A stretch of 64,000 nucleotides of DNA, from positions 4,743,925 through 4,807,924 of the forward strand of contig NC_034015.1 of the NCBI RefSeq assembly GCF_000346465.2, given 5' to 3'. How positions within the stretch are numbered: the first letter of the stretch is position 1; the number at the start of each line of letters is the position of its first letter. Under the pieces are notes generated by a model. The model saw nothing but the letters and a program-made list of their open reading frames with translations, was not told the DNA's origin and ran no database searches. Source of the stretch: Prunus persica. Its lineage: Eukaryota > Streptophyta > Magnoliopsida > Rosales > Rosaceae. Shown in pieces: positions 14,390 through 64,000 of the stretch. The position numbers and the translations under genes were made by a program.

Positions 14390-15260
14390 GATGGGAGGAG
14401 TCATTTGGTGAGTTTTGAATGAAATCCAATGGCTAAAACTATGCAATACACCACCCACTCCATTTCATAACGAACTTCGTACGAACCTGAATTGTCCAAT
14501 TTCATGGACCAATCGATATCGGATTAAGTACAAAACTTGGGGAACATCATAATATGATGGGTGGAGTCATTTGGTGAGTTTTGAATGAAATTCAATGGCT
14601 AAAACTATGCAATACACCACCCACTCCATTTCATAACGAACTTCGTACGAACCTGAATTGTCCAATTTCATGGACCAATCGATATCGGATTGAGTCCAAA
14701 ACTTGGGGAACATCATAATATGATGGGAGGAGTTATTTGGTGGGTTTTGAGGGAAATCCAATGATAAAAATATGCAATAAACCAACCACTCCATTTCATA
14801 ACAACTTCGTACGTACCTGAATTGTCCAATTTCATAGGCCAATCGATTTCGAATTGAGAACAAAACTTGGGGAACATCATAATATGATGGGTGGACTGAT
14901 TTGGTGAGTTTTGAATGAAATCCAATGATTAAAACTATGCAATACACCACCCACTCCATTTCATAACGAACTTCGTACGAACCTGAATTGTCCAATTTCA
15001 TGGACCAATCGATATCGGATTGAGTCCAAAACTTGGGGAACATCATAATATGATGGGAGGAGTCATTTGGTGGGTTTTGAGAAAATCCAATCTCTAGAAC
15101 TATGCAATACACCAACCACTCCATTTCATAACGAACTTTGTACGAACCAGAATTGCCCAATTTCCTGGAACAATCGATATCGGATTGAGTCCAAAACTTG
15201 GGAAACATAATAATATGTTGGGAGGAGTCATTTGGTGGGTTTTGGGTGAAATCCAATCTC
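14390..15260 (+). repeat. local dimeric higher-order repeat (332 bp)
   Basis: Monomers marked by TGATGGGTGGA and ATACACCACCCACTCC (near 14560 and 14890) alternate with monomers marked by TGATGGGAGGAGT and TTTGGTGGGTTTTGAG (near 14725 and 15055). The offset is 332 bp, or two monomers. Similarity between copies is visibly higher than to neighbouring monomers, which indicates recent local amplification. Confidence 0.65.
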
Positions 15261-36163: not shown

Positions 36164-37268
36164 ATGGGCCCTAAGCGTGGTGGTGTCCGTAAAGGGACAA
36201 GACAGTCGTCCCGACAAAAGGGATTGGATTCCCAGCTCGAGCAGGAGGAAGTTCCTGTTCCTGTACCGGTACCTGAACCGGTAGAGCAGTCCGTTGTTGG
36301 AGGCCTGTCAGGAGCCGTACCTGTTGTGCCTACTATGCTGGGAGATCCCAACTTCCAGCAGACTTTGAAGTTGCTGACTCAGGCTTTATCCAGTATTGGG
36401 CAGTCCAGAGATCCCTCCCTGGGATATGCTGATCAAGCTAAGAGGATTAGGGCCACTGATTTTGATGGTGATGGTAACCCAGTGGTACAACGGTAGCTGA
36501 GGAATGGATAGAAAGGATGAAGCGGATCGTGGAGGTCATGGCTGTTCTACAGAACTGCAGGGTTACTCTGGCTACCTTCTTTTTGATCAAAAATGCCAGA
36601 CATTGGTGGGACTCGGTTAAGAGGAGATATCGGGATCCTTTAGTCATTACGTGGCAAGTATTCAGAGCCGCATTTGACAGTCAGTACTATCCACAAGCCT
36701 ACCAGAATGTGAAGATGGAAGAGTTTTTACAGTTGGAACAGGGGATAATGACAGTATTAGAGTACGAGAAAAAGTTTAATCATTTGTCTAAATATTGTCT
36801 TCCACTGGTGGAGGATGAAATCAAGAAGTGTCAACTTTTCACTATGGGGCTAAAGGCTACCTCGTGATGTGGTGATGTCTACCTCGTTGATTGAGAGCGG
36901 CCAGATGATGGTCAGAACACGGGGTGAACCCCGTAGGTAACAGTTTGATATGGGTGGTCCTAGTCAGGGATCATCTAAGAGAGGTAGTTACAGTTCTGGA
37001 TCATCTAGTGGCCGCAACTACGGAGGATACCGACCTGGATTCAGTTCCAGTGGAGGGAAGTGGCAGTTCTGGGAACCGCTCCGGGGGTAGTGCAGCTAGA
37101 GGTACTGGGAGACAGTTGCTGTCAGTATCTGGTAGGAGGAGTTGCCCCCAATGTGTCAAGTGTGGTAGGTACCATTCTGGGACTTGCCAGCAGGGCACTA
37201 CTAGATGTTATTATTGTGGACAATCTGGACATTTTAGAAAGGATTGCCCGCTGCTCCTTCAGAATAGA
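36164..37268 (+). pseudogene. gypsy gag (broken), ending at the CACTA insertion
   Basis: Encodes the capsid/nucleocapsid polyprotein of the retrotransposon. The first ATG after the primer-binding site (36164) opens MGPKRGGVRKG. The capsid region follows, with ARHWWDSVKRRY and EFLQLEQG, which are typical of plant gypsy Gag. A CCHC zinc knuckle is clear: CYYCGQSGHFRKDC (37206-37247). The frame is broken several times: at about 36490 an 8-bp insertion (GGTACAACGGTA where GGTA is expected), near 36860, near 36935 (stop TAA), and near 37055. The 3' end is cut by the CACTA element right after the codons for QNR, and the reading frame resumes at 53220 beyond it. Non-functional. Confidence 0.9.
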
Positions 37269-37297
37269 CACTACTACAAAAAGTGAAAAAGACGACC
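37269..37297 (+). repeat. CACTA 5' terminal inverted repeat
   Basis: CACTACTACAAAAAG followed by TGAAAAAGACGACC. The reverse complement of the other end reads CACTACTACAAAAAAG then CAAAAAGACGACGG, so the arms match over about 29 bp with one single-base indel and a few substitutions. Confidence 0.93.
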
Positions 37298-38938
37298 AGA
37301 AAACAACGACGGTCTAAGTGAAAACCGTCGTGGTTTTTAAAAAGACGACGGTTCTAAAAACACCGTCGTGTAATACAACCTTAGACAACTAAAAAATGGA
37401 GAATCAAATGGCTGTTCAAAAACAACGACGTACCTAATTAAACAACCGACGTCTATTTGAAACAGATTTCCGCAGTGTAAAATCAATGCCAACAAAGAAC
37501 GGCAGAAGTTATGAATCGACCGACGTAGAAAGTAAAGACGACGATTTCAATAAAAACCGATGTTTTTACTCATAAAATAACACGACGAGGTTTTCGTATA
37601 AGACGCCGTATAATTACAAACAAATCCACGGCTTTAAAATACAAAATATCGCCGTATTAAATTAATGTACAACGACGGAAAATATAAATATATCAACGTC
37701 ATTCTCATATAGTTCTACGACGTTATCTTTAAATCGTACAATAAAATTTAACGTCGTATTTATTCATTTTATACGTCGTACCTTTAATTTAAACCGTCGT
37801 CTTAATAAGAATTTTTGTTAACAATTTTTTTCTTTGATTTTCTCATCCTACGTCGGTAGATCTACTTAATGACAAGAATTGAAATAACCACGACGGTTTA
37901 TATAGAAAACCGCCGACATAATCAGATTTGTCTGAGATCCTAAGGGTTACGAAATCTTACCAGATGGAACTCTGTTCCACATCATAATCTTAACAGATGA
38001 CACAGATTTGCAATCAGAGAGACAATTTTTTGGAAGTTGATAATGTGTGTGCGTTTGTGTATCTACAAATATTATACCTAACGTCGTTGCAAATTTGCAA
38101 TCAGAGAGACAATTTTCAACGACGGTTATATTATACCTAACGACGTTTAAAAAACAAATCAATGTCGCTCAACAAATATATTACGTCGTCTTAGTCTTAC
38201 TTAAGACGACGAAAAATGACGACAGTAATACAAAAACAGTCGTTGTTTTTATATTCTTATTTTATTTAAATCTGTCATCCAAAAAAGAAACTTTACATAT
38301 TACAGAACATTAATTTCCTTCATTTTAAATTTCCTCCGGAAAAAAAAACTCTATTTATAACGCCACTGTAATTGAAAAATAAACTGAAAGGTCACGGGAA
38401 AAAAAATTCTATTCATAATTTAAAAATTCAAATCCACGTCGGTTATATTAAACCTAACGACGTTAAATGAAAAGATTCCACATCGCAAAACAAATATTGC
38501 GTCGTGTTAGTTAAAAACGACGGCATAACAAAAAACCGTCGTTGTTTCAAACTGAATTAATTTAAAATTTATTCGGGAAAGCAAAATCTATTTATAATTT
38601 CCTCGGGTTAGTAATATTGCGTCGTGTTAGTTTACAAATTCTAGAACATTAATTTCCCTCATTTTAAATTTCCTCGGGAAAGAAAAATCTATTTATCACG
38701 CTTTGTAATTGAAAACTAAAACTGAAAGAATTCGGGAAAAAAAACTCTATTTATAATTTAAAAATAAAATCCACGTCGGTTGTAGTACACTTAACGACGT
38801 TTAACAAAATAATCTACGTCGGTATTATAAATCTACCGCCATCTTACCTTAATATAGACGACGAGAAAAGACGACGGTAGAACAGAAAACCGCCGTTGTT
38901 TCAGTTTCTTTAACAGTTGGTCCTTTATCTTTCTGCAG
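37298..38938 (+). repeat. CACTA 5' subterminal region with ACGACGG-type motifs
   Basis: About 1.6 kb of AT-rich DNA with dozens of short CG-containing motifs in both orientations: ACGACGG, CCGTCGT, ACGTCGT, ACGACGT. In En/Spm elements, repeated subterminal motifs bind the TNPA-type protein; a similar role here is inference. A duplication of about 250 bp is included: about 38305-38560 and 38644-38890, offset 339 bp (both begin GAACATTAATTTCC, and both contain ATCCACGTCGGTTGTA- or ATCCACGTCGGTTATA-like cores). No gene is seen. Confidence 0.85.
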
Positions 38939-38939
38939 G

Positions 38940-39370
38940 ACTTGTATAGTTCAAAGCATTGACAATGTCTTCATCATATCTCCCAGCAAATACTGATTCG
39001 ATTGCTCATGCTTTAGAGGCCATCTGAAGCCATTTCTATTCTTTATCGCATTCTTGAAACCCATCTTCTTCTTCTGAAGCTCTACGGATAAAGGAAGAGG
39101 CTATCACAAATCTGACGGATCTTCTTAGCCAAGAAAATCAAGCAGATTTCCCTGAGAAGCGAACTTTCCTTCGACAGCGAGTGGAGGCCAGGCTTGCATC
39201 TCTTTTGATGGAAAGCAAGGAGTATTCAGAAGCACTAAGTGTCCTATCAGGCTTGATCAAGGAAGTGAGAAGGCTAGTTGACAAGCTTCTTCTTGTGGAC
39301 ATATATTTGATGCGAGTAAGCTCAATTTATCTTTGAGAAAGACATCCAAATTATTGTCTTTGAGACGTGA
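38940..39370 (+). pseudogene. RPN6: captured fragment of RPN6 (26S proteasome lid subunit)
   Basis: Translating in pieces gives segments that match plant RPN6 (PSMD11, non-ATPase subunit 11 of the 19S lid). The start MSSSYLPANTDSIAHA is at 38965. EAISILYRILE follows in a second frame from 39026, and EALRIKEEAITNLTDLLSQ then EKRTFLRQRVEARLASLL and KEVRRLVDKLLLVDI in a third frame (39076-39312). The stretch SKLNLSLRK then continues in another frame. About 80 residues expected between the QEN and EKRTFLRQ segments are missing. It has an early TGA (39025) and at least three frame changes, so it cannot make a proteasome subunit. It is host DNA carried within the 5' part of the transposon, a transduplicated gene fragment. 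Identification is from memory of the protein family. Confidence 0.85.
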
Positions 39371-39399
39371 GAGACTGAGAGAGGAAGAACTTGGAACCC

Positions 39400-39780
39400 T
39401 AAATGTAAACCGAAAATGAATGAAAGCGACAAATTTATAGAATAAATTTTTAAAACCAACGGCGGTCCTTACAAAAAAACCGTCGTTTAAATTGTAAAAT
39501 CAACGTCGGTATGATCGACGTATATTACAGAAATCCACGTCGGTACATTAATAAAAATGACGTGTTAAATAATCTACCATGACGCGAGTTATTACTTATG
39601 TACTTTAATTTTAGAGTTTACTACGACGGTACCTACAACACTACTGTCGTATTTATTTACCACGTCCGAAGTTAAATGTACCGTCGTATTTTGTAATTCA
39701 TACGTCGTAGTTATATGTAACCGCCGTATTATTTTTTTGAAATGGTTTTATATGTAAGCAACTTTTCGTCTACCTGACAT
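39400..39780 (+). repeat. further CACTA ACGACGG-motif region
   Basis: The motif field resumes after the RPN6 fragment (ACGGCGGTCC, ACCGTCGTTT, CACGTCGGTA, CTACGACGGTACC). There is no coding sequence. It lies upstream of the leader of the first transposon gene. Confidence 0.75.
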
Positions 39781-40824
39781 ACACATGCGCTGTTTCCAAA
39801 CCCGATTAAAAATTTCAATCTTCCAGAGAAAACTTTTAGACTTTTTTCCTTGTCAGAGCACTGTCAGAGTATCTCATCGTCTTCCTCTCGTCTTCTTCGT
39901 CCTCTCTGAACTTAAACATAATCTTCCTCTTGCTTTCATTGCACGCAAAAGGTAAGCTTTCATTTTCACTATTTTGGTTGCTGTTTTGCATGCTCATACG
40001 TTTTTTGTTTGAAAAATCTTTTTACCTTTTTTCTGGCCAAAATCATTTTACTTCTTTCCAAGTTCGATAAAATATACAGACAAAGAGGGAAAGTTTCCAA
40101 CTTTGAAGACAACTACCTCAACTAAATAAGACGACGGTAGCTTCTTATTTACGTGGTTAAATATGTAGACCACGACGGTTCGTCAGTCGTTCTAGCGTCG
40201 TCTGAAAATTGACAAAGTTGTTTTTAAAATTATAGTCTTTTTTTTATTTGCTTGTTTAATTGCAGGTTTGATTTCTCTGAACAATGGTTTTTGTTTTTTC
40301 CTAATTTGATAAAATATAAAGAAAAAGAAAGTAGGGTTGGTATCTAATATAGACGACAGTATCTTATTGTTTTACGTCGTGTGAATGTTAATACCACGAC
40401 GTCATATTAAAATACCGTCGTCTATATAAGATTCCAAAACTTTCTTTCTTGGCCTTGTATTTTATCAAATTAGAAAACAAAAACCATGGTTCAGAAAAAT
40501 CAAATCTGCAATCAAACATTCACAGAGAAAGAAAGAAGGGTTTCGGATCCTTATATAGACGACGGTATATTACTAATGACGTCGTGTGAACATCAATACC
40601 ACGACGTTATATAAATATTTCGTCGTTTATAGTTAATTATCACGTCGTTTATAGTTAATTATTTCGTCGTTGTTTAATTACCTTGGTTTTAAACATTTAT
40701 TACGTCTGAGATTATTTCATTGCATCGTTTAAAATCATATCATACATCGTATTTTATTAATAACCGTCGTTTGTGTTCTTAATCTTTTCCTGAAATATTT
40801 TCACTTGCAGTTTTGTCTGTAAAA
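39781..40824 (+). promoter_or_regulatory. putative leader and leader intron of the first CACTA gene
   Basis: A pyrimidine-rich stretch (39840-39930) resembling a plant 5' UTR ends at CGCAAAAG followed by GTAAGC (donor at 39952). The likely acceptor is CACTTGCAG at 40802-40810, 14 bases before the ATG at 40825. The implied intron of about 859 bp contains many ACGACGG/ACGTCGT motifs. Splice sites are inferred by eye. Confidence 0.6.
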
Positions 40825-43330
40825 ATGGTTTCTCACCAAGACCAAAGTAAGGATTCTGGCTCTAAGAAAAATGGAGGTAAGGAGCTTGGAATGGTACTTC
40901 CTCAAGTGAAGCCTTCGAAGAAGATGAAGTTTGCTTCATCATCTGCTGAGACAGAACCAACCAGCACGACAACAATCTCTGATGATTCAAAGTCTGGTCG
41001 AGGTATGAGCACAATGCCTCGTGTTGTGAAGAGAAAACTTCAGAAACTGAGGCCAATTGTTGAGTACAATAAAAGGGGGAAAGGAATTGGCCAAGCACAT
41101 AGTGAGATGCAGTCCTACATTGGTGTGTTGGCACGCTCCAGAGTTCCACTTGTGGACATGAAATGGGCTCAAATCCCCAAGGATATAAAAGAGCAGATTT
41201 GGGAAGCAGTTGACATTGCTTTTGTGGTAGGTCAAGGGGGCAAGAACTCTGTGTTAGCTTCTGCTGCCAAGAAATGGAAGGATTTCAAGTCTACACTAAC
41301 GAGGCATTATATCCTTCCATACACCAATGACAGGGAGAGATTAAGCCAACCCCCTGAAACATATAAATTCATAGAGAAAGCACAATGGGATGCCTTTGTA
41401 GCTTCAAGGTTATCCAAAGATTTTGAGTCTGTGCATTCTCAACATGCACAGATTAGGGAGAAACTTGAGTACAATCATCGATTGTCTCGAAAAGGATATG
41501 CTGGTTTGGAGGATCAATTGGAGGAAACCATGCCTGGGGTAGAAATTGATCGATCTACCTTATGAAAGAGAGCTAGACAGGACAAACATGGTAACATCCC
41601 GGATCCAAAGGTGGCAGAGAAAGAAAAATTAATTGTAAGCCTACTCACTCTGTTTTAAATTTTTATTAAACTGTGAATAATTCTTATTACGTCTTATGTT
41701 ATATTTTGCGTCGTGTGAATGATATTACCACGTCGAAATTTTTTAAAAAACGTCGTTAAAGGTCTAAATCAGGAATCACTACTCTGTTTTCTGTAATTAT
41801 AGCATAAGATGTCGGTGGTTCATTTTCGCGTCGTTTGTATTGAATTACTACGTCGAAATGTTTTAAACAAGGTCGTTAAAGGTGTGAATATTGAATCATC
41901 CCTCTGTTATATGTAAATAAAGCATAAGACGTCGGTGGTTTATTCATTTCGTCGTTTTAAAAAACTAACCACGTCGGTATAACTACCGTCGTGATAAATT
42001 ATAATAACGTCGATTTATATGTTATTGCGTCGTGTGAAATTATATAATACGTCGTTTGTATATAAATAACCGTCGTGTGTTTTTGTTCTTACTTTTTTAT
42101 ATATCTTTGTTTTAGGATGAATTGCAAAAACAAGTCTCGGAAGGCAAAGTCACTGTATCTGGTAGCAATGATGTGCTGACCATGGCTTTGGGCCCCGAGC
42201 ATCTAGGCAGAGTGAGAGGAGTAGGTGCTGGGATCTCACCAAGGCAATATTTCAATTTACCCAAACCACAGAGAGTGAGCTTTGACGACCGTTTGAAGGA
42301 CAGTTTAAGAGTTCTCCTTCAAGAAGAGACGAAAAAGATGGAAGCTAAGGCAAGGGAAGAGGCTTTAAGGATGGAGGCTAGAACGAAACAATTGGTAGAG
42401 GCTGAGAGGGAGCATTTCCTGAGTCAGCTTTCCCAATTAATTTCCAATTTTGATCCAAGCATGCTTAAACCCAGAATTAGCCAAAGTCCCAAAAATCCAA
42501 TGTCTGACAAAGCAAGCTGCTCTGGAGGTGATGTGAGATCCCTACATTTTGAGGATGATACTGCCAAAAATGGGAAACATCAGGAAGAAAAGGTAACATA
42601 TCTGAACTTTGAATTCTCTGTTTTTTTTAAAACCATTAGACGTCGTTATTATTAATAAAACCGTCGTTTGAAATACATACCACGACGATTTTAAAAATAA
42701 ACCGTCTTTTGTATTTCAATACCACATCGTATTTAGTTTACTTGTTTTACACGCCATTAAACGTCGTTATTTTTAAAACTTTGTGGTTTTTAGACGACGG
42801 AGTTAGTCATTCCCGACGTAATAGATGAAGAGAAGAAAGAAGAAAAACAAGATGAAAAGGAGAAAGAAGATGACGACCAGGTATGTTCACATAACTTTGC
42901 CTTTTTTATTTGTTTTTCAAAATTCCAGACGTCTATATTTTTCTTTAAACCGTCGTTTGTTTACAACTTAGACGGCGGAATTTTTTTTAAGACGTAATAA
43001 ATTATTCACCACGACGGTTTTTTCACCGTCGTTTAAATTCTTTTCAGACGACGTTTTATTCCTTAAACCGTCGTTTTTATTGAATTACCACGTCATTTTT
43101 TTTATTTCTTTAAACAGGTTATTAAAGTTGTTGATTATTCAAATATGGAGGCGCCATCTTCTTTAAAATCCCTTTGTCGTTATGTGGAAATGACACTCGT
43201 GCGTCAGGATAAGACCCTGCACTTTACAATTGATAAGGAGGTGTTTGGTCTAGAGCGCGATACCTTCCTCCTGCCTGAAGATATTACACAATTTGCAGGC
43301 ATGGAAGAAATAGGAGCCACTGTCATTGCT

Positions 43331-43714
43331 GTATATATGAGGTTTGTCATTCTAAAATAATACGTCGTTGGTTTATTTATTGCGTCGTCTTAACTAACTA
43401 ACCACGTCGTTAGTATGTACCGTCGTGATAAATATATTATAACGTCGTTGTCTATTTCAGTACGTCGTGTGAAATTCTATAATACGTCGTTTTGTTATAC
43501 ATAACCGTCGTGTGTTTTTTTTGTATATATGAGGTTTGTCATTCTAAAATAATACGTCGTTGGTTTATTTATTGCGTCGTCTTAACTAACTAACCACGTC
43601 GTTAGTATGTACCGTCGTGATAAATATATTATAACGTCGTTGTCTATTTCAGTACGTCATGTGAAATTTTATAATATGTCGTTTTGTTATACATAACCGT
43701 CGTGTGTTTTTTTG
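43331..43714 (+). repeat. 192-bp tandem duplication spanning a splice donor
   Basis: 43331-43522 is repeated almost exactly at 43523-43714. The unit starts GTATATATGAGGTTTGTC, the last bases of exon 4 plus its GT donor, and contains several ACGTCGT/CCGTCGT motifs. The copies differ at a few positions, for example ACGTCGT to ACGTCAT. The second donor lies in what is now intron. Confidence 0.9.
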
Positions 43715-43757
43715 TGCTGACTTGTTTATATTATTTTATATATTTAGGTACTTACAC

Positions 43758-45864
43758 TGACAGGACCCGACCCAATTTCCGCTTTGGAATCCGAGTCGAA
43801 TCCTGTGCGTGTCCGACATCTGGCTAATGTCGGGCACAAAAGACCTTTTTACCCTTCTCGTTTCAAATTCTTTCCAAATTTCCCTTAGACTTCTGCCGAA
43901 AATTCGGCAGAGTCTCCCCTATATTTTGACAAATCCCAAATTCTTCCGCCTGTTAAACAGTCAATAAATTCACACCAACTGCCAGAATATCTCAAGTAAC
44001 CATTCTCAACTCTAGTTTCTCAATTTCAACTAGATATCAGAGTATTTTCTAAGGCTTTCGAGGTTTCAAGGATTTTCTTCAAAACTCTACCTTTCTTGAT
44101 GGCGCGGAAGCTATGTATGCCCGGTGGTGGATCCCGCATACTTCTACGGCCTGGGGGCGTAAAACAGATTGAAAATGTGAGTGGACAAAAATAATGTTCT
44201 TGAAAACAATTTTTATAAGCATAATAACCCCCATAACAATAACTTGATAAGTAAGGCTAAGGTTCACCTGTGTTTAATATAAGGTTTTCATCTGAAAATA
44301 AATATAATCGTAAGCCTATAGCTTCGTAACACTGAACAATTATATAAAGATACAAAAGGCGCAAATATCAAAGTAACTGGTTTGAAATAGTTGAAAATCA
44401 TAACTGAATAAAAGAGTTGAAAATCCTTTGAAAATACCACCTACTTGTACCCCTGTCATAACCGTCAATTCCCCTGGCAGGTCTCGGGCGCCACGCAGTC
44501 CACCCGAGCCGCAAACTGGCGAAATCAGGGGACTATGATCAGCCTGATCTTGCCGGCAGATTCCTCGATGACACCAAGTCAGCTCGAGTCGCTCTGGCAG
44601 GATGCAGGGGACCGTAGTCAGCCTGATCCGCAATCCTGGCAGGTCTCGGGGACACAAAGTCAGCCGAGCCGCAATCCTGGCAGGTCTCGGGACACCAAGT
44701 CTGCCGAGCCGCAAATCCTGGCACTCACGGTCCGAGCGTCCCCGTAACTCGTGAGGCAAAGTCAAGTGCACTGACATAAACTGAAATCGGACTGGATGTC
44801 CGTAGACATCGGTCCAACTCTGGGTAATCACCATAAATAAATGGGTACGAGGTGGTTTTAAAATAAATTCCTTTAGAAAAATCTGATTAATAACTGAAAT
44901 CTCAAATTGTGCTGCTATTTCATCTGCCATAAGCCTCAAAATCTGTTTTCTATAACTCTTAAGCATGTAAAAGTAAGCAGCACACAACTCATAGAACTAT
45001 TTCTGTATTAATCATGCTCGGAAACACAATAAAGCTTACTCAAGATCAAATAAGGAATTTAGTCAAATAAACCCGTTTATAAAAACTCTTTTATATAAAA
45101 TCAATATAAAATCACTTATAAAATCTTATTTATGGAAAACCTCTGGAAAACCTCTATATAACTCATTTATATAAAATAATTCATGAATGAAAGTCCACTC
45201 ACAGATGGTCCGAGCTACTTTGACCCTTCGAAGGTCTCTTTTGCAATCCTGTCGGGCTCCTGGTGCCTTACTCGACCGATTTGGTGGAAAATTGAAGGAG
45301 AAAATCGAGCTGCAAGTTCGGGTGGTTTCGGACGAATCTCCGTCGAAAAACATGGTTTTTCGATCAACTCCGAGCAGCCCAAGGGTGGAGGTCGGTCAGG
45401 TTTTGACGGCGAGAGGGAGGCGGACCCGATGGTACCCACGGCGGAGATCAGCTCGGCATGTGGTGGCCGGGCCGTCGCCGAGAAGGCGAAGGGTCGCACG
45501 GCCAAGTCGCGCGGAAGGAGAGAGAGAGGAGAGAGAGAGAACTGACGAGGGAGAGGAGAGAGAAAGATATAAAAATCTGACTTTTTGACCAAATTACCGT
45601 TTTGCCCTTCGCGGTTTTTAGACCATATCTTCTTCGTTACAGCTCCGATCCGGGTCTACTCCGTGTCCACGAACTCGTTTCACCGCGCTCTACGCAATGG
45701 TGTAAGCGGAATGCCCAAATTCTTTCTCGACTAAAAAGTCAATTTTCCCCCTATTAAATAATGCGAGGGCAAAATAGTCTTTTCGCTAGAAGATATTTTC
45801 CTTACTTTTTAGATATTTTCTTTCTTTTTAGATATTTTGTTTTGGTTTGTTTTGGGTTCTTACA
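43758..45864 (-). mobile_element. solo LTR inserted in a CACTA protease exon
   Basis: Starts TGACAGGACCCGACCC and ends GGGTTCTTACA; on the minus strand it reads TGTAAGAACCC...TGTCA. It is flanked by the 5-bp duplication TACAC (43753-43757 and 45865-45869). Length is 2,107 bp. It belongs to the same family as the solo LTR at 30981 and the gypsy LTRs. A minisatellite of about 45 bp around CCTGGCAGGTCTCGGG lies at 44630-44720. It splits an exon ten bases after its start. No internal region remains. Open frames of 120-215 codons inside it have no domain. Confidence 0.92.
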
Positions 45865-46810
45865 TACACGATATTTTGAAACGAGCAAATATGTGCAGCA
45901 TGGTTGGCTTTATCGATCCTGCTACAGTTAGTGCCAGCTCTGGCACAATAGCTGACAGATCACGCCTACTAGCAGCTCGACTTCAGAGGACTGACGGTGA
46001 ACAGATTTTCCTGATGCCTTACAATCCAGGGTTAGTCTCCTTAACAGGATTTTGTTTTTATGATTTTCAATAAATGACAGCGTATAAACTAACCACGTCG
46101 GTGTTTTATTTTATTGAGTCGTTTGAAACTACTAGCCACGTCGGTAGTTATATATCGTCGTGATAAATGTATAATGTCGTCGATTGCTACTTTATTTCGT
46201 CGTGTGAAATATTATAATACGTCGTTTTTGTAAATAACCGTCGTTTTTATATTAATTTTGTGCAGCCGTAATTGGATCTTGCTGATTGTAAGAGCAAAGA
46301 GAGAAACCGTCTATTTTCTGGATCCTCTGCCAGGAAATCGTGTGGTCGATGAAGAGGCCAAAAACATCGTGAACAGTGCTATAAAAATTTATAATTCTCA
46401 CATAGCCAGACCAGGCCGTAAGGCAGTAATTTGGAAAACTCTGTCAGGCACACCAAAGCAACCCAGCAGTGTCGAATGCGGGTATTATGTGATGCGCTTC
46501 ATGAGGGACATCATCATGGATCCTTCCTTGGGGTTTGAGAAGAAGGTAAGAAGAAATTACCTTCATACATTTTACGTCGTTTTTTGTATTATCAACGACG
46601 GTCATGTAAAATTACCGTCGTTGAATAGATATAGTACGTCGGTTATGAAAAATATCGTCGCCTGTGATTGAATTTCTTTTTATTTATAAACCCTAATAGT
46701 CATTGTTTATGCAGTATGCCAAGGGAAAACAGGAAGCGCCATACCCCCAAGAAGCAATTGATGAAGTTCGGAATGAATGGGCAGAGTTTGTTTGCCTTAA
46801 CCTGAAATAG
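45865..46810 (+). pseudogene. Ulp1-like (C48) protease part of the CACTA gene
   Basis: The 3' half of the accessory gene, after the solo LTR. The region HDILKRANMCSMVGFIDPA begins the domain. Exon 5 ends at 46030 (YNPG) and exon 6 opens with RNWILLIV. The catalytic set of Ulp1 enzymes is His, Asp, Gln, Cys. Here Asp is in YFLDPL (46321), Gln precedes PSSVECGYY by the usual six residues, and Cys is in ECGYYVMRFM (46477). The residue expected to be His before Trp is Asn (AAT, 46270). Exon 7 encodes EVRNEWAEF and stops at 46808. Family members cleave SUMO-like proteins; activity here is unlikely. Confidence 0.82.
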
Positions 46811-47500
46811 GGGAATTATTGAACACTTGATATTTATGTATAATGTACAGATTTTGTCTATAATATATAATGTAAAAATTTGTTGAGGTTTTCTTAAATA
46901 AAAAAAAAACAAACATACAAATTGCCTAACCGACGTGTAATACTTTTCCAACGACCTAATAAAGTCAAAAACCGTCGTTTTTTGTTGTTTCGTTTTAAAC
47001 AAATCCGACGTAAAAGGATATTTAGACGACGTTCTTTGAACAATTGAGTCGTTTATGGTTTACAACGTCTTCAATTTCTTAAGGGTTCAGGGTAGTACTT
47101 TGTAACGACAGCGGTTAAGTCGTGGAATATATATTTTACGTCGGATAGTTAAATATCCGCCATGGTTTCTCATTTAAACGACGTCATTTTAACAACTTAG
47201 TCGTCTATTACAATTTACAACGTCTACAATTTATTAACACCGACGTGGTTTGTTGTTGTGATAAGAATATTTTATTATTTTTATATCAAAATATTCAAAA
47301 TAAATTTAAAATAAATCAGAAAAATGCAAAGTCAACTCCTATGAAGTCATTGATATATTTTCTTCCCCCTAAACCTTGAAAAAATTCATTTTAACTAACA
47401 AAAATTTAAAATGACCATCCAAAACAAAATTGTTTTGATGAGTCATAAAATCACTTCTAGTTTTATATTTGGCTCTTATTCTTATACTTCTAACCCTGAA
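46811..47500 (+). repeat. intergenic CACTA region with ACGTCG motifs
   Basis: The 3' flank of the accessory gene begins with an AT-rich stretch suited to polyadenylation (AATAAAAAAAAAAC near 46895). ACGACGT/CCGTCGT motifs follow at about 46930-47250, then 250 bp of motif-poor AT-rich DNA just upstream of the TNP2 leader. No gene is seen. Confidence 0.7.
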
Positions 47501-48251
47501 CCCTAAAATTTTCAGATTTCGCGCAACATAACATTCGCTCTCTCACTTCTGCTCTAATTAAAAGTTGCACTCTCCAGGCTCCGTTGAATCTGTGAGCTCG
47601 TCCAACCTGTAAGTACAAACCCTATCTTCCCCTTGTAAATTCATTGAATGATATTAGGTTGTTTTGTTAAAGGGTTTTAGGTATATGCTTTGAGATCTGT
47701 TAATAATGTGTTTATAGGTATGGGTTCATGGATTTTCTGTTTAATGGGTTCATGGATTTTCTGTTTAATGGGTTCATGGATTACATTATCTGTTATGTTG
47801 AATTGGGAATGGATTTAATTTTGTCGGATCTTTTAATCACCCTATGTTATGTTGAATTGGGAATGGATTTATTGTTTTCATGCTTGGTTTCATGTATATG
47901 TTGGTTTCTTGCTTGGTTTCATATATATGTTGTGTTCTTAATGGGTTTTGGGTTCTTGAAAATAAACTGAGACACGACGCCTTTTTAGGCATACGACGAC
48001 GATTACACGACGGTTTATGAAAAAACCGTCGTTGTATTACTTATACACGACGCTTTTTTCATAAACCGTCGTTTGTATTACTTATATTAGACGACGTCTG
48101 TTGAAAATCCGTCGTCTATATATGCCAAATACGTCTGTTTTTGTTTAAAACCCGTCGTCTCTGTTGTGTATTACTTGCTATTAGATCTTTGTATAATCTG
48201 CTATAGTGATGGTCATTGCCTGTATTTTCACTTTATTATAGATAATAGGTT
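47501..48251 (+). promoter_or_regulatory. putative leader and leader intron of the TNP2 gene
   Basis: A leader-like stretch ends TCCAACCT followed by GTAAGT (donor 47609). The acceptor is TTATTATAG at about 48241 (or AATAG at 48248), just before ATG 48252. The intron of about 630 bp holds a 24-bp tandem repeat (about 47720-47785, unit ATGGGTTCATGG then ATTTTCTGTTTA), a related duplication of GTTATGTTGAATTGGG, and a cluster of ACGACGG/CCGTCGT motifs (47970-48160). That cluster includes a perfect 10-bp-arm hairpin at 48007-48032. Confidence 0.6.
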
Positions 48252-51200
48252 ATGGTGCCGGAGATGGATAAGTCATGGATGCACTCGGATAGAAGATCGA
48301 AGGCATATGAGTTTGGGGTGGAAGCATTTTTGAACTTTGCTGTAGAAAATCTTCTAACTACAACACATATCCGTTGTCCATGTGTTAAATGTGTTAATTT
48401 GAAGTTGTTTGGGGTTGGAATTATAAGGGATCACTTATACTTTAATGGAATTGACCAAAGCTAAAGAATTGGACATTTCACGGAGAACCTTGGGAAGCAA
48501 CTACTAATGCTAGTACAAATGTTGAAGAAGATGATGGCCATAGTAGGTACAGTTTTGTGTCTGAAGAAATTGATATGGATGATAATGATTTTGGTGATTT
48601 TGGTTCCGATCCGTATGAGTTTGCCAATGTGATTGGGGATGGAGATCAACCAGTGTACCCTGGTTGTAGAAAGTACACGAAGTTATCGGCATTAGTGAAG
48701 TTGTATAATTTGAAGGCAAAACATGGGATGAGTGATGTCTGTTTTACAGAATTATTGATACTTCAAGGCGATTTGCTTCCAGAAGGAAATACAATACCAA
48801 CCTCTATGTATGAGGCTAAAAAGACTTTGTGTGCATTGGGGCTGAGTTATGAGAAAATGCACGCATGCCCCAATGATTGCATCTTGTATAGGAAGGAGTA
48901 TGAGGATTCAACTAATTGTCCTACTTGTGGTATCTCAAGGTGGAAGGAAGGCAAAGATTCAATCTTGAAAGAGGGTGTGCCAGCGAAGGTGGTGTGGTAT
49001 TTTCCTCCAATTCCAAGGTTTAAAAGGATGTTTCAATCACATGAGACAGCTAAGAGTTTGACTTGGCATGCTGCTAGAAAATCAATTGACGGTCAGATGT
49101 CTCATCCGGCGGATTCCCCGTCTTGGAAACTTCTTGATGATAAATGGCCTGAGTTTGGTAATGAGCCGAGAAACTTGAGATTGGCTCTTTCATCTGACGG
49201 GTTCAATCCCCACAGTTCTCAAGTAGTAGATATAGTTGTTGGCCGGTTATCTTAGTTACATATAATCTCCCTCCATGGCTGTGCATGAAACGAAAGTTCA
49301 TGATGTTAACCTTATTGATTTCCGGTCCTAAACAACCCGGAAATGATATAGACGTCTACTTGGAGCCTTTGATTGATGATTTAAAATCTTTGTGGGATGG
49401 GATTAGAGGAGTGTATGATGCACATAATGGAGAATATTTTACACTCAGAGCTGCATTAATGTGGACAATTAATGATTTCCCCGCCTATGGAAACTTATCT
49501 GGTTGTGTTGTTAAAGGATATAAGGCTTGTCCAATATGCGGCGATGATACACCTAGTCACAGGTTGAAAAATGGCCACAAAATTTGTTACATTGGGCATA
49601 GAAAATGGTTACCAATCAATCATCCATATAGGAGGCAACGTGCAGCTTTTAATGGGAAACCTGAATATGGCATACCTCTGGAGCCATTAACCGGAGAAGA
49701 AGTGCTGCATATGGTTGAAAATTGTGACAGAGTTTGTTGGAAGAAGAAATCAATATTCTTTGATCTCGAGTATTGGAAATACCTTCCTGTGAGGCATGCC
49801 CTAGATGTTATGCACATTGAGAAGAATGTTTACGATAGTATTATTGGTACATTGCTGGAGATCCCTGGAAAAAATAAAGATGGGATTGCTGCTCGATTAG
49901 ATTTATTGAACATGGGGGTCAAAACTGATTTGCAACCCGAGTATGGAGAAAGACGTACTCGTTTGCCTCCTGGGCCTTGGAATTTGTCAAGAGCAGAGAA
50001 AAGAGAGGTTTGCAATTCTTTCTATGGTATGAAGGTCCCTGAAGGTTATTCTTCAAATATTAAAAATCTTGTATCTTTACAAGATTCAAGACTTCTTGGC
50101 CTTAAATCACATGATTGTCATACCTTAATGCAACAATTGCTCCCTGTGGCAATTCGTTCTGTTTTGGAGAAGCCTGCAAGGTATGCAATAACTCGTTTGT
50201 GCTTCTTCTTCAATGCTATATGTGCAAAGACTGTTGATGTTTCCAAGCTAGATAAGTTGGAAGAAGATGTAGTAGTTACTCTGTGTTTGCTTGAGAAGTA
50301 CTTTCCCCCTTCATTCTTTGATATTATGGTTCATCTAGTAGTACATCTTGTCAGAGAAGTTCGTCTATGTGGGCCAGTATATTTTAGGTGGATGTATCCG
50401 TTTGAAAGATATATGAAAGTGCTGAAGGGGTATGTTCAGAATCGTACTCGTCCCGAAGGTTGCATTGCTGAGCGGTATATAGCTAAAGAAGCGGTAGAGT
50501 TTTGTACTCAGCATTTATCTGATGTTAGTACAGTTGGAGTGCCTTCAAGCCAAAAGATGGGACTTTCAAAGCCATTATCAGGTTGCACAGTGAGCGTAGT
50601 TGATCAAGACCTGTTGAATCAAGCACATCTATATGTCTTGGAGAATACGGAGGAAGTCCTACCTTATATCGAGTACGTATGAGTTTTATTCTTTAAGTTT
50701 CCATTTTAAATTATTTCTTATGTTTATCTTCTATATTTGGGACCGTAATGCTTGAACTTTTCGTGTCATGTAGGCAACATATGATCCACATCAAGACTGC
50801 TTATCCAAAATTTAGAAAGAGAACAAAGTGGCTGCAGGATAAGCACAATAGCACTTTCATTCAATGGCTACGCTTCAAGGTATATGTTGTTGAATAACAT
50901 ATTTCTCTTTTAATTTTCTTCTTATTTCTATGTCAGATTGAATTAAGATATATGATTAATTTGCAGGTTCAAAGTGAACTTGAGGAAGACAATCATGGCG
51001 TATCAGAAAATTTAAGGTGGCTAGCAGCTGGTCCAAACATGGCAGTGCCATTATATAGGAGCTATCTTATTAAAGGTATTAAATTCAATATCAAGGCACA
51101 AGATGATGTGCGGACAACTCAAAATAGTGGAGTTTATTTACTTGCACATACCATGCAAGTTGCTAGTGCCAAGGATAAAAACCCAATTCTCTCAAATATG

Positions 51201-51611
51201 GGTTTCTATGGTGTCATTCAAGAAATTTGGGACCTTGACTACCAAAAGTTTACAATCCCAGTCTTTAGGTGTGATTGGATAGATAGTTCTGGTCTTGTAG
51301 TCAACGAACTTGGATTTACCCTTGTAGATTTGAGTAAAATTGGACATAGGAATGACCAATTTGTTTTGGCTTCTCAAGTCAAACAAATATTTTTTGTTGA
51401 CGACCCGATGCATCGTGGTTGGTCGGTAGTGTTATCAATGCCTAATAGAGAATATAATGATGTTATTGGTGATGAAGTCTTAGGTGATGTGATAATTGAG
51501 TGTGAGCCATTTACTAGAGGGATGCCAAATGTTGACACATTTGATGAACTGGTGGGTGAGTTAGGCGGTCAAAATATTCGAGATGGGTGTGAAGATATAT
51601 GGATTGAATGA
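48252..51611 (+). pseudogene. TNP2: CACTA TNP2-type transposase (TNPD-like), two frameshifts
   Basis: Catalyses cut-and-paste transposition in En/Spm elements. Exons 48252-50672, 50774-50879 and 50967-51611 have GT/AG borders; allowing for two missing bases they total 1,057 codons. Visible domains in order: Transpos_assoc (KSWMHSDRRSKAYEFGV, RCPCVKC); the cysteine motif CPNDCILYRKEY..NCPTCG; the Transposase_21 core (VVWYFPPIPRFKRMF, LALSSDGFNPHS, PWLCMKRKFMMLTLLISGP, GYKACPICGDD, HALDVMHIEKNV); a DUF4218-type region (YFPPSFFDIMVHLVVHLVRE, YMKVLKGYVQNRTRPEG); and in exon 3 a DUF4216-type region (YGVIQEIWDLDY, DPMHRGWSVVLSMP). Lesions: a one-base deletion creates TAA at 48462, and another near 49222 leads to a stop at 49253. 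Otherwise the frame is clean, so loss of function is recent or is partly sequencing error. Confidence 0.93.
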
Positions 51612-53189
51612 TGCTTATGTAATTGGCAGTGTATGACATTAATTTTGTAATACATTGTAATGTGATTTCTTCACTTTCTACGTTCAAATAAAACACGACG
51701 TTATTGTGAACCAGTTATTCAGCATATTTACCGACGTCTTAAAGCAACGTAACAATGAAGAACCACGACGCTATTGTGAAGCAATTATTCAGGATATCAC
51801 GTCGGGGAAGGATTAAGAACCCCCATGTAATTCAAAATAACACGACTCCAATCCCATAATACCGACGTCTAAAAAACGAGATATATAATCTGAACGTTAA
51901 AAAATACGACGTCATCATACATTTTCCACGTCGCAAGTTCTTTTATAAACGAAGAGGAACGAAATGAATTCCGACGGTAATTCATTATAACCGCCGTCTA
52001 ATATCAATGAAACGACGTTATTTGTAATACGGCTCTCATCATAATCAATGCCGTCTATATGTTCTGTAATACGGCTCTCATTTATTTGGAACCGACGTTG
52101 TTTAGAAGTTCAACGTCGTCTATATTAATAAGTGCGTCGTGAGTAATGAATACATATAAATACAACGTCGACAATATAAATGCCACCGACGTTGTTTCAC
52201 ATTCAACGTCAACTATATAAATACATACGTCGTAAATAATGACACTGACAACTATTTCCACGTCATCTTTTTTAGAAAAATCGAAGTGGAAAATTTATTT
52301 CACGACGGTTGTTTGTAAATAAGAGACGTAGTAGATTTCAATAACGTCGTCTTCTCATGTATTTAAAGACGTCATATTTTTTCTTGTCGTGAAAATTATA
52401 TTTAACGGCGTAGTGTTTTAGTTGTCGTCGTTGTATGTCTATCTTGTGGCCTTGTTCTTTTAATATGTGTCATATTTTTCCTTTTTAACGACGGTGATTT
52501 GTTTGAGTTGGTCGTCTATTCTCATCCTCGACTATTTTTTAGAACTTTAGCAGACTAAACACGTCTGTTTTTATTTGTTTTCGACGTTGTTGTATTTAAC
52601 AACGTCTAATATTTATCGTCGTTGTTTGTTTCTGAAAATAGGAAGTATAAATTTTGTAATACGACTCTCATATATTTGTAACCGACGTTGTTTCGTTGTT
52701 CAACGTCTACTCTATAAATACATACGTCGTAAATAATGACACTGACAACTATTTCCACGTCATCTTTTATAGAAAAATCGAAGTGGAAAATTTATTTTAC
52801 GACGGCTCTTTTTATATAAGCGACGTAGTAGGTATAAATAACGTCGTCTTCTAATGTATTTAAAGACGTCATATTTTTTATTGTCGTGAAAATGATATTT
52901 AACGGCGTTTTATTTTAATTTTCGTCGTTGTATGTCTATCTTGCGGCCTTGTTTAGTTAATATGTGTCATATTTTTCCTTTTTAACGACGGTTTTTTTAG
53001 AGAGTTGGTCGTCTATTCTCATCCTCGACTGCTTTTTTAGATCTTTTGCAGTTCAAAGACGTCGTTTTGTATTTGTTGATGACGTTGTATATTGTAACAA
53101 CGACGGTGATTTAGCGTCGTGGTTTATGAGGGAAAAGATGACGGTGGATTCCACGACCATTGAAAAATCGAATACACGACGGTGATTTA
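51612..53189 (+). repeat. CACTA 3' subterminal region
   Basis: About 1.6 kb filled with ACGACGT, ACGTCG, CCGACG and CGTCGT motifs in both orientations, the mirror of the 5' side. A duplication is included: about 52184-52560 and 52682-53045, offset about 497 bp. The two copies share AATAATGACACTGACAACTA, AAATCGAAGTGGAAAATTT and GTCGTCTATTCTCATCCTCG. No coding sequence is seen. Confidence 0.85.
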
Positions 53190-53219
53190 CCGTCGTCTTT
53201 TTGCTTTTTTGTAGTAGTG
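53190..53219 (-). repeat. CACTA 3' terminal inverted repeat
   Basis: CCGTCGTCTTTTTG followed by CTTTTTTGTAGTAGTG, the inverted partner of the arm at 37269. The AGA target duplication follows immediately. Confidence 0.93.
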
Positions 53220-53222
53220 AGA

Positions 53223-58587: not shown

Positions 58588-61500
58588 TGAATTTTTCAAT
58601 TTCATGGACCAATCGATATTGGATTGTGTCCAAAACTTGGGGAACATCATAATATGGTGAGAGAAGTCATTTGGTGACTTTTGAGTGAAATCCAATGGCT
58701 AAAACAATGCAATACACCAACCACTCCATTTCATAATGAACTTCGTTTGAACCTGAATTGTCTAATTTCATGGACCAATCAATTTCGGATTTAGTCCAAA
58801 ACTTGGGGAACGTCATGATACGGTGAGAGGAGTCAATTGGTGAGTTTTGAGTGAAATCCAATGGCTAAAAAACTATGCAATACACCAACCACTCCATTTC
58901 AGAACGAACTTCGTACGAACCTGAATTGAACAATTTCATGTACCAATCGATATTGGATTGAGTCCAAAACTTGGGGAACGTCATAATGTTGTGGCGGGAG
59001 TCATTTGTTGGGTTTTGAGTGAAACCCAATCTCTTGAACTGTACAATACACCAGCCACTCCATTTCAAAACGAACTTCGTACGGACATGAATTGTCCAAT
59101 TTCATGGACCTATTGATATCGGATTGAGTCCAAAACTTGGGGAACACCATAATATGATGGGAGGAGTCATTTGGTGGGGAGTCAATTGGTGGGTTTTGAG
59201 TGAAATCTAATCGAAACAACTGCGCAATACACCAACTACTCCATTCAGAACGAACTTTGTACGAACATGAATTGTGCGATTTCATGGACCAATCGATATC
59301 GGATTGAGTCCAAAACATGGGGAACATCATAATATAGTGGGAGGAGTCATTTGGTGAGTTTTGAGTGAACCCCACTTGACAAAACTATGCAATACACCAA
59401 CCACTCCATTAGAGACCGAACTTCGTACGAACATGAATAGTATAAACATCATAATATGGTGGGAGGAGTCATATGGTAAGTTTTGAGAGAAATCCAATGG
59501 CTAAAACAATGCAACACACCAACCATTCCATTTCAGAACGAACTTCGTACGAACTTGAATTGTCTGATGTCATGGACCAATCGATATCGGATTGAGTACA
59601 AAAATTGGGAAACAACATAATATGGTGGGAGGAGTCATTTGGTGAGTTTTGAGTAAAATTCAATGGCTAAAACAATGCAACACACCAACCACTCATTTCA
59701 AAACGAACTTCGTACGAACCTGAATTGTCCGATTTCGTGGACCAATCGATATCGGATTGAGTCCAAAAATTGGAGAACATCATAATCTTGTGGGAGGAGT
59801 CATTTGGTGGGTTTTGAGTGAAATTCAATCTCTATTACTATACCATATGACAACCACTCCATTTCATAACAAACTTCGTACGAAACGGATTTGTCCGATT
59901 TTGTGGACCAATCGATATCGGATTGAGGCCAAAACTTGGGAAACATCATAATGTTGTGGGAGGAGTCGTTTGGTGTGTTTTGGGTGAAATCCAACAGCAA
60001 AAACTATGAAACACACCAACCACTCCATTAGAGAATGAACTTCGTACAAATATGAACAGTCCAATTTCTTGGACCAATCGATATAGGACTGGGCCCAAAA
60101 CTTGGGAAACATCATAATATGGTAGGAGAAGTCATTTGGTGAGTTCTGAGTGAAATCCAATGGCTAAAACTATACAACACACCAACCACTACATTTCTTA
60201 ATGAACTTCGTACGAACCTAAATTGTCCAATTTCAAAAACCAATCGATATCGGATTGAGTCCAAAACTTGGGGAACATCATAATGTTGTGGGAGGAGTCA
60301 TTTTGTGTGTTTTGAGCGAATTCCAATGGCTAAAACAATGCAATACACCGACCACTCCATTTCAGAACGAACTTTGTATGAACCTGAATTGTCTGATTTC
60401 ATGAACCAATCAATATCGGATTGAATCCAAAACTTGGGGAACATTATGATATGATGGGAGGAGTCAATTGGTGAGTGTTGCGTGAAATCCAATTGCGAAA
60501 ACTATGCAATACACCAACCACTCCATTTCATAACGAAGTTCGTAAGAACCTGAATTGTCCGATTTCTTGGACCAATCGATATCAGATTGCGTCCAATACT
60601 TGGGGAACATCATAATATTGTGGGAGGAGTCATTTGGTGGGTTTTGAGTGAAATCCAATCCCTAGAACTGTGCAATACACCAACCACTCCATTTCAAAAC
60701 CAACTTCGTACGAACCTGAATTGTCCAGTTTCACAGATCAATCGATATCGGATTGAGTCCAAAAACTTGGGGATGATCATAATGTTGTGGGAGTAGCCAT
60801 TTGTTGAGTTTTGAGTGAAATCCAATTGCCAAAACTATGCAATACACCACCCACTCCATTTCAGAATGAACTTTGTACGAACCTGAATTGTCCAATTTCA
60901 TGGACCAATCGATATCGGATTGAGTCCAGAACTTGGGGAACATCATAATATAGTGGGAGGAGTCATTTGGTAGGGTTTGAGTGAAATCTAATCTCTAGAA
61001 CTATACAATACACCAACCACTCCAATTCAGAACGAACTTCGTACAAACCTGTATTGTCCAATTTCACAGATCAATCGATATCAGATTGACGCCAAAACTT
61101 GGGGAACATCATAATGTTGTGGGAGGAGTCATTTTGTGAGTGTTGAGTGAATTCCAATGGCCAAAACAATGCAATACACCGACCACCCCATTTAAGAACG
61201 AACTTCGTACGAACATGAATTGTCCAATTTCATGGACCAATCGATTTCGAATTCAGTCCAAAACTTGCGGAACATCATAATGTTGTGGGAGAAGTCATTT
61301 GGTGGGGTTTGAGTCAAATCCAATCTCTAGAACTATACAATACGCCAACCACTCCATTTCAAAACGAACTTCGTACGAACCTGAATTGTCCAATTTCACG
61401 GATCAATCGATATCGGATTGAGTCCAAAACTTGGGGAAGATCATAATGTTGTGGGAGGAGCCATTTGTTGAGTTTTGAGTGAACTCCAATTGCCAAAACT

Positions 61501-64000
61501 ATGCAATACACCACCCACTCCATTTCATAACGAACTTCGTACGAACCTGAATTGCCCAATTTCAGGGACCAATCGATATCAGATTCAGTCCAAAACACGG
61601 GGAACATCATAATATGGTGGGAGGAGTCATTTGGTGACTTTTGAGTGAATTCCAATAGCTAAAACAATACAATACACCAACCACTCCATTTCAGAATGAA
61701 CTTTGTACGAACCTGAATTGTCCGATTTCTTGGACCAATCAATATTGGACTGAGTCTAAAACTTAGGGAACATCATAATATGGTGGGAAGAGTCACTTGG
61801 TGAGTTGTGAGCGAAATCCAATGGCTAAAACTATGCAATACACCAATCACTCCATTTCAGAACAAACTTCTTACACACCTGAATTGTCCGACGTCCTGCA
61901 CCAATAAATATCGGATTGAGTCCAGAACTTGGGCAACATCATAATATAGTAGGAGGAGTCATTTGGTGGGTTTTGAATGGAATCCAATCTCTAAAACTAT
62001 ACAATACACCAACCACACCATTTCTGAACGAACATCATACGAACCTGAATTGTACAATTTCATAGACCAATCGATATCAGATTGAGTCCAAAACTTGGGG
62101 AACATCATAATGTTGTGGGAGGAGTCATTTGATGAGTTTTGAGTGAAATGCAATTGCCAAAACTATCCAATACCCCAACCACTCCATTTAAGAATGAAAT
62201 TCGTACGGACCTGAATTGTCCGATTTCATGGACCAACCGATATCAAATTGAGTCCAGAACTTGGGGAACATCATAATATAGTGGGAGTAGTCATTTGGTG
62301 GGGCTTGAGTGAAATCCAATCTCTAGAACTATACAATACACCAGCCATTCTATTTCGGAACAAACTTCGTACAAACTTGAATTGTCCAATTTCACAGACC
62401 AATCGACATCGGATTGAGTCCAAAACTTAGAGAACATCATAATGTTGTGGGAAGAGCCATTTTGTGAGTTTTGAGTAAAATCCAATTGCCAAAACTATGC
62501 AATATACCAACCACTCCATTTCAGAACGAACTTCGTACGAACCTAAATTGTCCAATTTCAAAGGCCAATCGATATCGGATTGAGTCCAACACTTGGGGAA
62601 CATCATAATATTGTGGGAGGAGTCATTTGGTGGGGTTTGGTGAAATCTAATCTCTGGAACTATACAATACACCAACCACTCCATTTGAGAACGAACTTCG
62701 TAAGTTCCTGAATTGTCCAATTTCAGAGACCAATCGATGTCAGATTCAGTCCAAAACATGGGGAACATCATAATATTGTGGGAGGAGTCGTTTGGTGAGT
62801 TTTGAGTGAAATTCAATTGCCAAAACTGTGCAATACACCAACCACTCCATTTCACAACGAACTTCGTACGAACCTAAATTGTCCAATTTCATGGACCAAT
62901 CAATATCGGATTGAATCCAAAACTTGGAGAACCTCATAATATTGCGGGAGGAGTCATTTGGCGGGTTTTGAGTGAAATCCAATCTCTAGAACTATACAAT
63001 ACACCAATCATTCCATTTCAGAAAAAACATCGTACGAACCTGAATTGTCCGATTTCATCGACCAATAGATATCGGATTGAGTCCAAAACTTGGGGAACAT
63101 CATAATATTGTGGGAGGAGTCATTTGGTGGGTTTTGAGTGAAATCCAATCTCTAGAACTATATAATACACCAACTACTTCATTTCAGAACGAACTTTGTA
63201 CGAACTTGAATTGTCCAATTTCATGGACCAATCGATATCAGATTGAGTCCAAAACTTTTGGAACGTCATAATATATGGTGGGAGAAGTCATTTGGTGAGT
63301 TTTGAATGAAATCCAATGGGTAAAACTGTGCAATACACCAACCATTCCATTATAGAACTAACTTCGTTCGAACCTGAATTGTCCAATTTCATGGACCAAT
63401 CGATATTGGATTGAGTACAAAACTTCGGGAACATCATAATTTACTATGAGTAGTCATTTTGGTGGCTTTTGAGTGAAATCCAATCTATAGAACTATACAA
63501 TACACCAACCACTCCATTTGAGAATGAACTTCGTACAAACCTGAATTGTCCAATTTCTTGGACCGATCGATATCGGATTGAGTCCAAAACTTGGGGAACA
63601 TCATAATATATGGTGGGAGGAGTCATTTGGTGAGTTTTGAATGAAATCCAACGGCTAAAATTGTGCAATACACCAACCCTTCCATTTCAGAACAAACTTC
63701 GTACGGACCTGAATTGTACAATTTCAGGGACCAATTGATATCGGATTCAGTCCAAACCTGGGGAACATCAAAATATTGTGGGAGGAGTCATTTCAGGGGT
63801 TTTGAGTGAAATCCAATCTCTAGAACTATACAATACACAAACCACTCCATTTCAAAACGAACTTCGTACGAACATGAATTGTCCTATTTGATGGATCAAT
63901 CGATATTGGACTGAGTCCAAAACTTGGGGAATGTCATAACGTTGTGGGAGGATTCATTTGGTGAGTTTTGAGTGAAATCCAATTGGCAAAACTATGAACG
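58588..64000 (+). repeat. 166-bp satellite array, block 5 (sense)
   Basis: About 32 sense monomers, continuing past the right edge. It starts in mid-monomer (TGAATTTTTCAATTTCATGG), about 50 bp out of phase with the monomer left at 34867, so some satellite was lost when the LTR junction formed. A duplicated GGGGAGTCAATTGGTGGG join occurs near 59175-59200, and a short monomer lies near 59440. Confidence 0.95.
60690..61560 (+). repeat. local tetrameric higher-order repeat (664 bp)
   Basis: Private variants TTTCACAGATCAATCG or TTTCACGGATCAATCG, GATCATAATGTTGTGGGAG, GCCATTTGTTGAGTTTTGAG and ATACACCACCCACTCC near 60735-60870 recur near 61400-61520. The offset is 664 bp, four monomers. Confidence 0.65.

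Follow-up and report, generated by a model that had tools for sequence, protein, structure and literature searches.

A fragment of the proteasome-lid gene RPN6 carried by a high-copy CACTA transposon family of Prunus persica

Bot1, a CACTA transposon of Brassica oleracea, carries a piece of an S-locus gene. It is a high-copy family like the one described here, with about 1,500 copies (credited to Alix et al. 2008) and with gene proliferation to its credit in the available part of PMC4828432, and it differs from our family in donor gene and plant family. Pack-CACTA elements likewise hold captured coding DNA between CACTA termini; they are non-autonomous and, as far as the available text on these Pack-TYPE elements goes (PMC8903248), mostly of low copy number in rice and maize. 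In the CACTA elements of Chenopodium, host gene fragments lie in the 5' region upstream of ORF1, the same arrangement as at our locus; in contrast to the latter, whose single fragment occurs at several hundred places, close to the word count of the transposase, the portion of PMC8978399 consulted holds no comparable fragment copy count. The rice miR820 CACTA element contains a host gene piece with exon and intron sequence, as does ours (with a putative intron), but its donor is a methyltransferase gene and it has five copies in Nipponbare according to the part of PMC3459959 at hand, whereas here the donor encodes a proteasome subunit. ULP-carrying CACTA families of grapevine share with our family a Ulp1-type domain and, unlike it, have no RPN6 piece described in the accessible sections of PMC2528002. 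For Prunus, a transposon review from 2026 (PMC13359793) treats CACTA insertions near fruit and dormancy genes; the part seen names peach PpYUC11 and PpeDAM6 as sites of non-autonomous CACTA insertions (about 2.6 kb), and it contains neither the word 'proteasome' nor an RPN6 capture. CACTA gene capture and the idea of a conflict between silencing and the donor gene are already known, and a published report of RPN6 capture by CACTA was not found in the open-licence literature.

The window, i.e. the whole 64,000-nucleotide stretch of DNA that was analysed (C7:4743925-4807924), was compared with a genome of 227.5 Mb in 192 contigs. It contains a CACTA element with the following features:

37269..53219, plus strand: CACTA (En/Spm) transposon with CACTACTACAAAAA termini, 15,951 bp long with its nested 2.1-kb insert
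37269..37296, plus strand: left terminal inverted repeat, compared with the right end
53192..53219, minus strand: right terminal inverted repeat, compared with the left end
37266..37268, no strand: left target site duplication AGA, 3 bp
53220..53222, no strand: right target site duplication AGA, 3 bp
40813..41565, plus strand: element ORF without Pfam match
42122..42655, plus strand: element ORF without Pfam match
43758..45860, no strand: nested multi-copy repeat of about 2.1 kb with relatives elsewhere in the genome
46258..46671, plus strand: Peptidase_C48 (Ulp1) ORF of the element (PF02902, E 6e-10)
48557..49255, plus strand: tnp2 transposase, first part (PF02992, E 1.3e-14)
49285..50682, plus strand: tnp2 transposase, second part, and DUF4218 (PF02992, E 7.6e-58; PF13960, E 3.9e-43)
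50952..51611, plus strand: DUF4216 ORF (PF13952, E 6e-16)

The inverted CACTA termini at 37269 and 53219 are alike at 25 of 28 terminal bases. Words of the CGNCG type occur 5-13 times per 500 bp near both ends and 2-13 times per 500 bp between 37000 and 40500, compared with a mean of 0.17 in the 87 bins outside the element. Its termini, 3-bp target site duplication, tnp2 and subterminal motifs place the element in the CACTA superfamily. A 3-bp duplication (ATT) also borders L026, the sole fetched copy with both ends inside the fetched stretch. The host site appears to be a retrotransposon, Ty3-like by our reading: a zinc-knuckle ORF reaches the left end of the element, and about 0.4 kb past its right end starts an ORF that encodes protease and reverse transcriptase domains. 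The ubiquitin-like-protease domain that the first-pass annotation had ascribed to the element is indeed encoded, by the Peptidase_C48 ORF; for a functional tie between this Ulp1 domain and the RPN6 piece we found no evidence.

The nested 2.1-kb insert is apparently private to the window copy and outside the family structure; it is missing from 18 of the 19 other copies, and the 19th (L029) does not span the site. Relatives of the insert are about 80-99% identical over 1.5-2.1 kb (best 40 of 2081 candidates scored). Its flanks show a near-duplicate of 9 bases, 8 of which agree by eye, and a scripted search for an exact 9-bp duplication around it found none. Upstream of tnp2, at about 47461-47466, the window lacks roughly 530 bp present in 15 of the 19 other copies compared; this stretch is also missing in L017, and L011, L026 and L029 are uninformative. 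L029 (C1:17338780-17348779) apparently comprises two copies of the CACTA family, one inserted in reversed orientation in the other. ORF-like repeated stretches (NDSSHHIMMFPKFW... and similar; 1533-2382, 9731-10596, 14567-15256, 59001-62855) resemble a repeat, tandem or dispersed, that surrounds the nested transposons.

The RPN6 piece is located in the 5' non-coding region of the element, upstream of and on the same strand as the first ORF, and is composed as follows:

38908..38938, plus strand: putative tail of the RPN6 5'UTR intron, ending in TCTTTCTGCAG, first half diverged (alignment to the donor, L010)
38939..38964, plus strand: end of the RPN6 5'UTR, from the putative exon start to the ATG (positions 4598 and 4624, respectively, of the sense-strand donor locus)
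38965..39340, plus strand: codons 1-182 of RPN6, interrupted by a gap (about 53 codons, between codons 63 and 119) and by three small deletions, one of 8 bp and two of 1 bp
39138..39154, plus strand: deletion junctions within the RPN6 piece (alignment to the donor; junction word counts)

In a phmmer search of PDB, the joined window translation matched, in two stretches, Rpn6 of the spinach 26S proteasome (8amz_Q, E 1.9e-32); the 6 distinct sequences matched include RPN6 entries of animals and yeast, which rank lower. With blastn, the piece aligned to the host RPN6 gene in two segments, one of 231 bp (91.3%) and one of 190 bp (95.3%). This agrees with the annotation of an N-terminal fragment of plant RPN6, the details of which needed revision. 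The fragment had been placed at 38940..39370, where the RPN6 match lies; its borders shift to about 38908-39340. Instead of some 80 residues, about 53 are missing (codons 63-119; 128 + 31 = 159 donor bases, a split that depends on the alignment), and altogether 169 bases of the donor coding sequence have no counterpart in the window, in runs of 8, 1, 128, 31 and 1. The broken frames described at first are present as shifts and stops, but a single frame covers most of the piece: it is lost over a short stretch that shows stops, owing to the 8-bp and one 1-bp deletion, and again at the end, owing to the other 1-bp deletion, and the start codon shares one frame with about 50 codons past the gap. 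Likewise, CGNCG fields do flank the piece as proposed, but these motifs are dense across most non-coding parts of the element, well beyond its ends. A word at the 3' capture border (CTTTGAGA, 39331-39365) is repeated 27 bp further on, possibly a trace of microhomology.

The host genome contains one place with the RPN6_C_helix family, on the minus strand of C1 (13 candidates, 13 scored). Here, within C1:28340500-28349500, a 427-aa open frame yields a 422-aa RPN6 from the first ATG, so that the search for a donor led to one intact gene on another chromosome; a word from the donor stretch that is deleted in the captured piece likewise has 1 genome place, the donor. Homology starts upstream of the acceptor-like TCTTTCTGCAG, crosses the ATG and stops at codon 182. 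As to the intron status of the donor, its coding sequence is a single open frame, and therefore the absence of introns from the captured coding sequence is uninformative on the source; a 5'UTR intron is suggested by splice consensus in the donor alignments, with 11-31 nt of homology upstream of the putative acceptor. The captured acceptor-like sequence is TTTCTGCAG; of 41 copies, 38 have an exact TTTCTGCAGGACTTG and 37 an exact start codon context. Because the first part of the homology is read as the end of the 5'UTR intron, the captured source was probably genomic DNA and not cDNA.

A search with 451 bp of DNA gave at least 41 matches, and 40 of these, the window among them, were close to full length, at 99-100% (best 40 of 697 candidates scored). 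Word counts point to a much larger family: the core word of the RPN6 piece has 671 places (the donor included by sequence), the deletion-junction word 610 within 3 mismatches and a tnp2 transposase word 576, with 0 places for each backwards-pattern control. A word over the window-type 3' border, which cannot match the copies that have a one-base deletion there (some do), occurs at 375 places. Among 100 junction matches listed, 63 were exact, 31 had one mismatch, 2 had two and 4 had three; the latter four have CTTCAGATTTCC and are of the type that retains a further 25 bp of donor sequence. This type seems to be the commoner one, since junction matches beyond those listed must have three mismatches (if they are ordered as it looks) and since it accounts for 14 of the 17 tnp2-chosen loci that carry the fragment (L045 being placed in the window type by finer alignment). 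In the tnp2/DUF4218 region, 62 of the 91 best-scoring genome places have a single open frame of 811-812 aa (rows counted by hand).

The fragment and the transposase travel together. On C1, 70 of 91 listed tnp2 sites (7 further sites past the last listed core are excluded) are preceded on the same strand, at a distance of 4-16 kb (median 9,087 bp), by an exact core, compared with 3/91 in an orientation-flipped control, and a listed tnp2 site follows downstream of at least 71 of the 100 cores listed for C1; both values are lower bounds because only exact cores are listed. Most carriers checked thus also hold transposase sequence, in contrast to Pack-CACTA elements, in which transposase is lacking; the window element itself has tnp2. 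All 19 copies chosen by the fragment have the piece embedded in co-linear element sequence, and at least 18 of them align from the first base of the element. Sixteen of the 19 yielded the 5' terminal word, which adjoins 15 different trinucleotides. Among 20 loci chosen by tnp2, the piece was present in 17; L048 and L052 lack it, apparently through larger deletions, L034 has no element sequence in the fetched stretch, and a pre-capture relative of the element was not among these 20 loci, which held only apparent deletion cases. The proposal that the RPN6 piece moved with a CACTA element is therefore borne out by the element's ends and target site duplication, by the donor on C1 and by these loci, and other family copies carry it as well; the RPN6 match is clear, and the fragment was not found in the same place without a surrounding CACTA element. 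At C5:6012778-6012918 a partial second RPN6 piece (141 bp, 88%) adjoins a full fragment copy and could be a local duplication.

The two large deletions, of roughly 100 and 31 bp, recur in 41 of 41 aligned copies, from which we infer a single capture event. The 8-bp deletion was found in 40 of the 41, the remaining copy being uninformative, and one of the 40 (L036) lacks the region in a finer alignment. The mean distance was 4.9% to the donor and 1.1% between copies (15 copies, 4 chosen by junction word and 11 by tnp2, with L036, L039, L040, L043, L044 and L049 left out), and capture therefore looks older than most of the amplification, as judged from these alignments. The established facts, i.e. 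the element, its donor, the shared lesions, the copy number, the co-location with transposase and a decay that looks neutral, are best explained by a transduplicate that was captured by an ancestor of the CACTA family and amplified as a passenger, with no strong function in its own right, a reading to which we assign a probability of roughly 0.87. The ancestor would have taken up host RPN6 DNA from the putative 5'UTR intron end through codon 182, and this DNA would have landed in the 5' non-coding region, among the motif fields and upstream of the first ORF. The piece would then have lost about 103, 31, 8 and 1 bp during or soon after capture, and one broken version would have multiplied along with the element. 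Later decay would have differed between sublineages, with the window type losing 25 bp more, another losing the start codon and single copies losing the first half. Such further losses are seen in L039, L040 and L043, where the ATG region is replaced, and in L036, which lacks the first half together with the acceptor. Single capture, the genomic source and the passenger status are the inferred parts of this reading, and against the last of these is that the fragment is somewhat less variable than the right flank (0.097 versus 0.153 changes per site, with 19 of the 35 copies plus the window chosen for a near-identical fragment), which is unpredicted for a purely neutral passenger. Further points against the reading as a whole are the missing pre-capture relative among the 20 transposase-chosen loci and the short stretch of 11-31 nt, with its splice consensus, from which the intron would be read.

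An excess of C-to-T changes is a trace that methylated DNA tends to leave. In 35 copies (the 41 minus the rearranged L036, L039, L040, L043, L044 and L049), the fragment shows 24 C-to-T type changes at 172 C/G sites versus 5 transitions at 241 A/T sites, and the right flank 23 at 111 C/G sites versus 3 at 209 A/T sites. At CG and CHG sites, there were 8 C-to-T changes at 44 sites in the fragment versus 17 at 54 in the flank, corresponding to 8/40 and 17/49 of all changes (Fisher p 0.16, kinship ignored). The fragment does not look spared from methylation, because C-to-T change there is much like that in the flank, and we regard the idea of such sparing as unsupported.

The element might be protected by what it carries: small interfering RNAs, derived from transcripts or Pol IV products of several hundred copies, would match RPN6 mRNA, and the host would have to balance silencing of the family against an essential single-copy gene, a camouflage or hostage situation. 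This model is already published (PMC13317346, section 11, and PMC8978399, both as far as the available text shows), and several of our observations suit it. Each of the 41 copies has 72-139 positions with a 21-mer identical to the donor transcript, and the longest run identical to the donor is 48-89 nt, with 89 nt in 31 of 41 copies; small RNAs of the family, if made at the fragment, would thus match RPN6. In addition, one RPN6 donor faces a core word with 671 places, and open transposase frames are frequent. However, the C-to-T footprint (8 at 44 versus 17 at 54) does not indicate a fragment spared from methylation, the window holds no inverted RPN6 copy, and the piece folds ordinarily. While small-RNA effects on RPN6 are possible given these identities, we consider the model unlikely as an explanation of the locus. 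Quite unlikely, too, is the extension that perfect RPN6 exon matches of up to 89 nt at several hundred sites made silencing costly and so helped the family to expand and to keep many transposase frames open. A hairpin or miRNA origin was rejected: blastn of the window against the host RPN6 gave no inverted copy, and the window piece, with a fold z of 0.66 and 69 of 100 shuffles folding at least as well, is not a fold-back precursor of the miR820 type.

A role in expression of the element, for which the piece might, for example, provide a splice acceptor and a start codon or keep motif fields apart, would fit the location of the piece, ahead of the first ORF and in its orientation, and the preservation of TTTCTGCAGGACTTG and of the start codon context in 38 and 37 of the 41 copies, but recent copies would retain such sites without selection; moreover, the ATG region is replaced in L039, L040 and L043, the acceptor is gone from L036 and the whole piece from L048 and L052, six exceptional loci that were all chosen by a downstream transposase match, and we find such a role distinctly improbable. 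Insertion of an RPN6 cDNA or retrocopy in place of genomic DNA is compatible with the donor's intronless coding frame, which is uninformative in this respect; against it stand the homology upstream of the putative acceptor and the end of the piece inside the coding sequence, with no poly-A tract following it in the alignment to the donor, which makes this origin very improbable. The idea of a coding role, in which the piece would yield or contribute to an RPN6-like protein disturbing the proteasome lid, can draw on the start codon and the roughly 50 codons in the same frame past the gap. However, stops and frame shifts occur in the window and in the translated copies, and the majority sequence of the copies differs from the donor by 11 nonsynonymous and 4 synonymous changes, a share in line with the 75.7% nonsynonymous changes expected at random; a protein-coding role is ruled out on these grounds as nearly as we can tell, and is close to refuted.

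We therefore favour the passenger captured once by an ancestral CACTA element. What this family contributes is a large and clear-cut case: a single donor gene, what looks like one capture, copies in the several hundreds and numerous open transposase frames, which together make the conflict model directly testable with small-RNA and bisulphite data. With its copy number and its donor gene, the family is a good test case for silencing by captured DNA.
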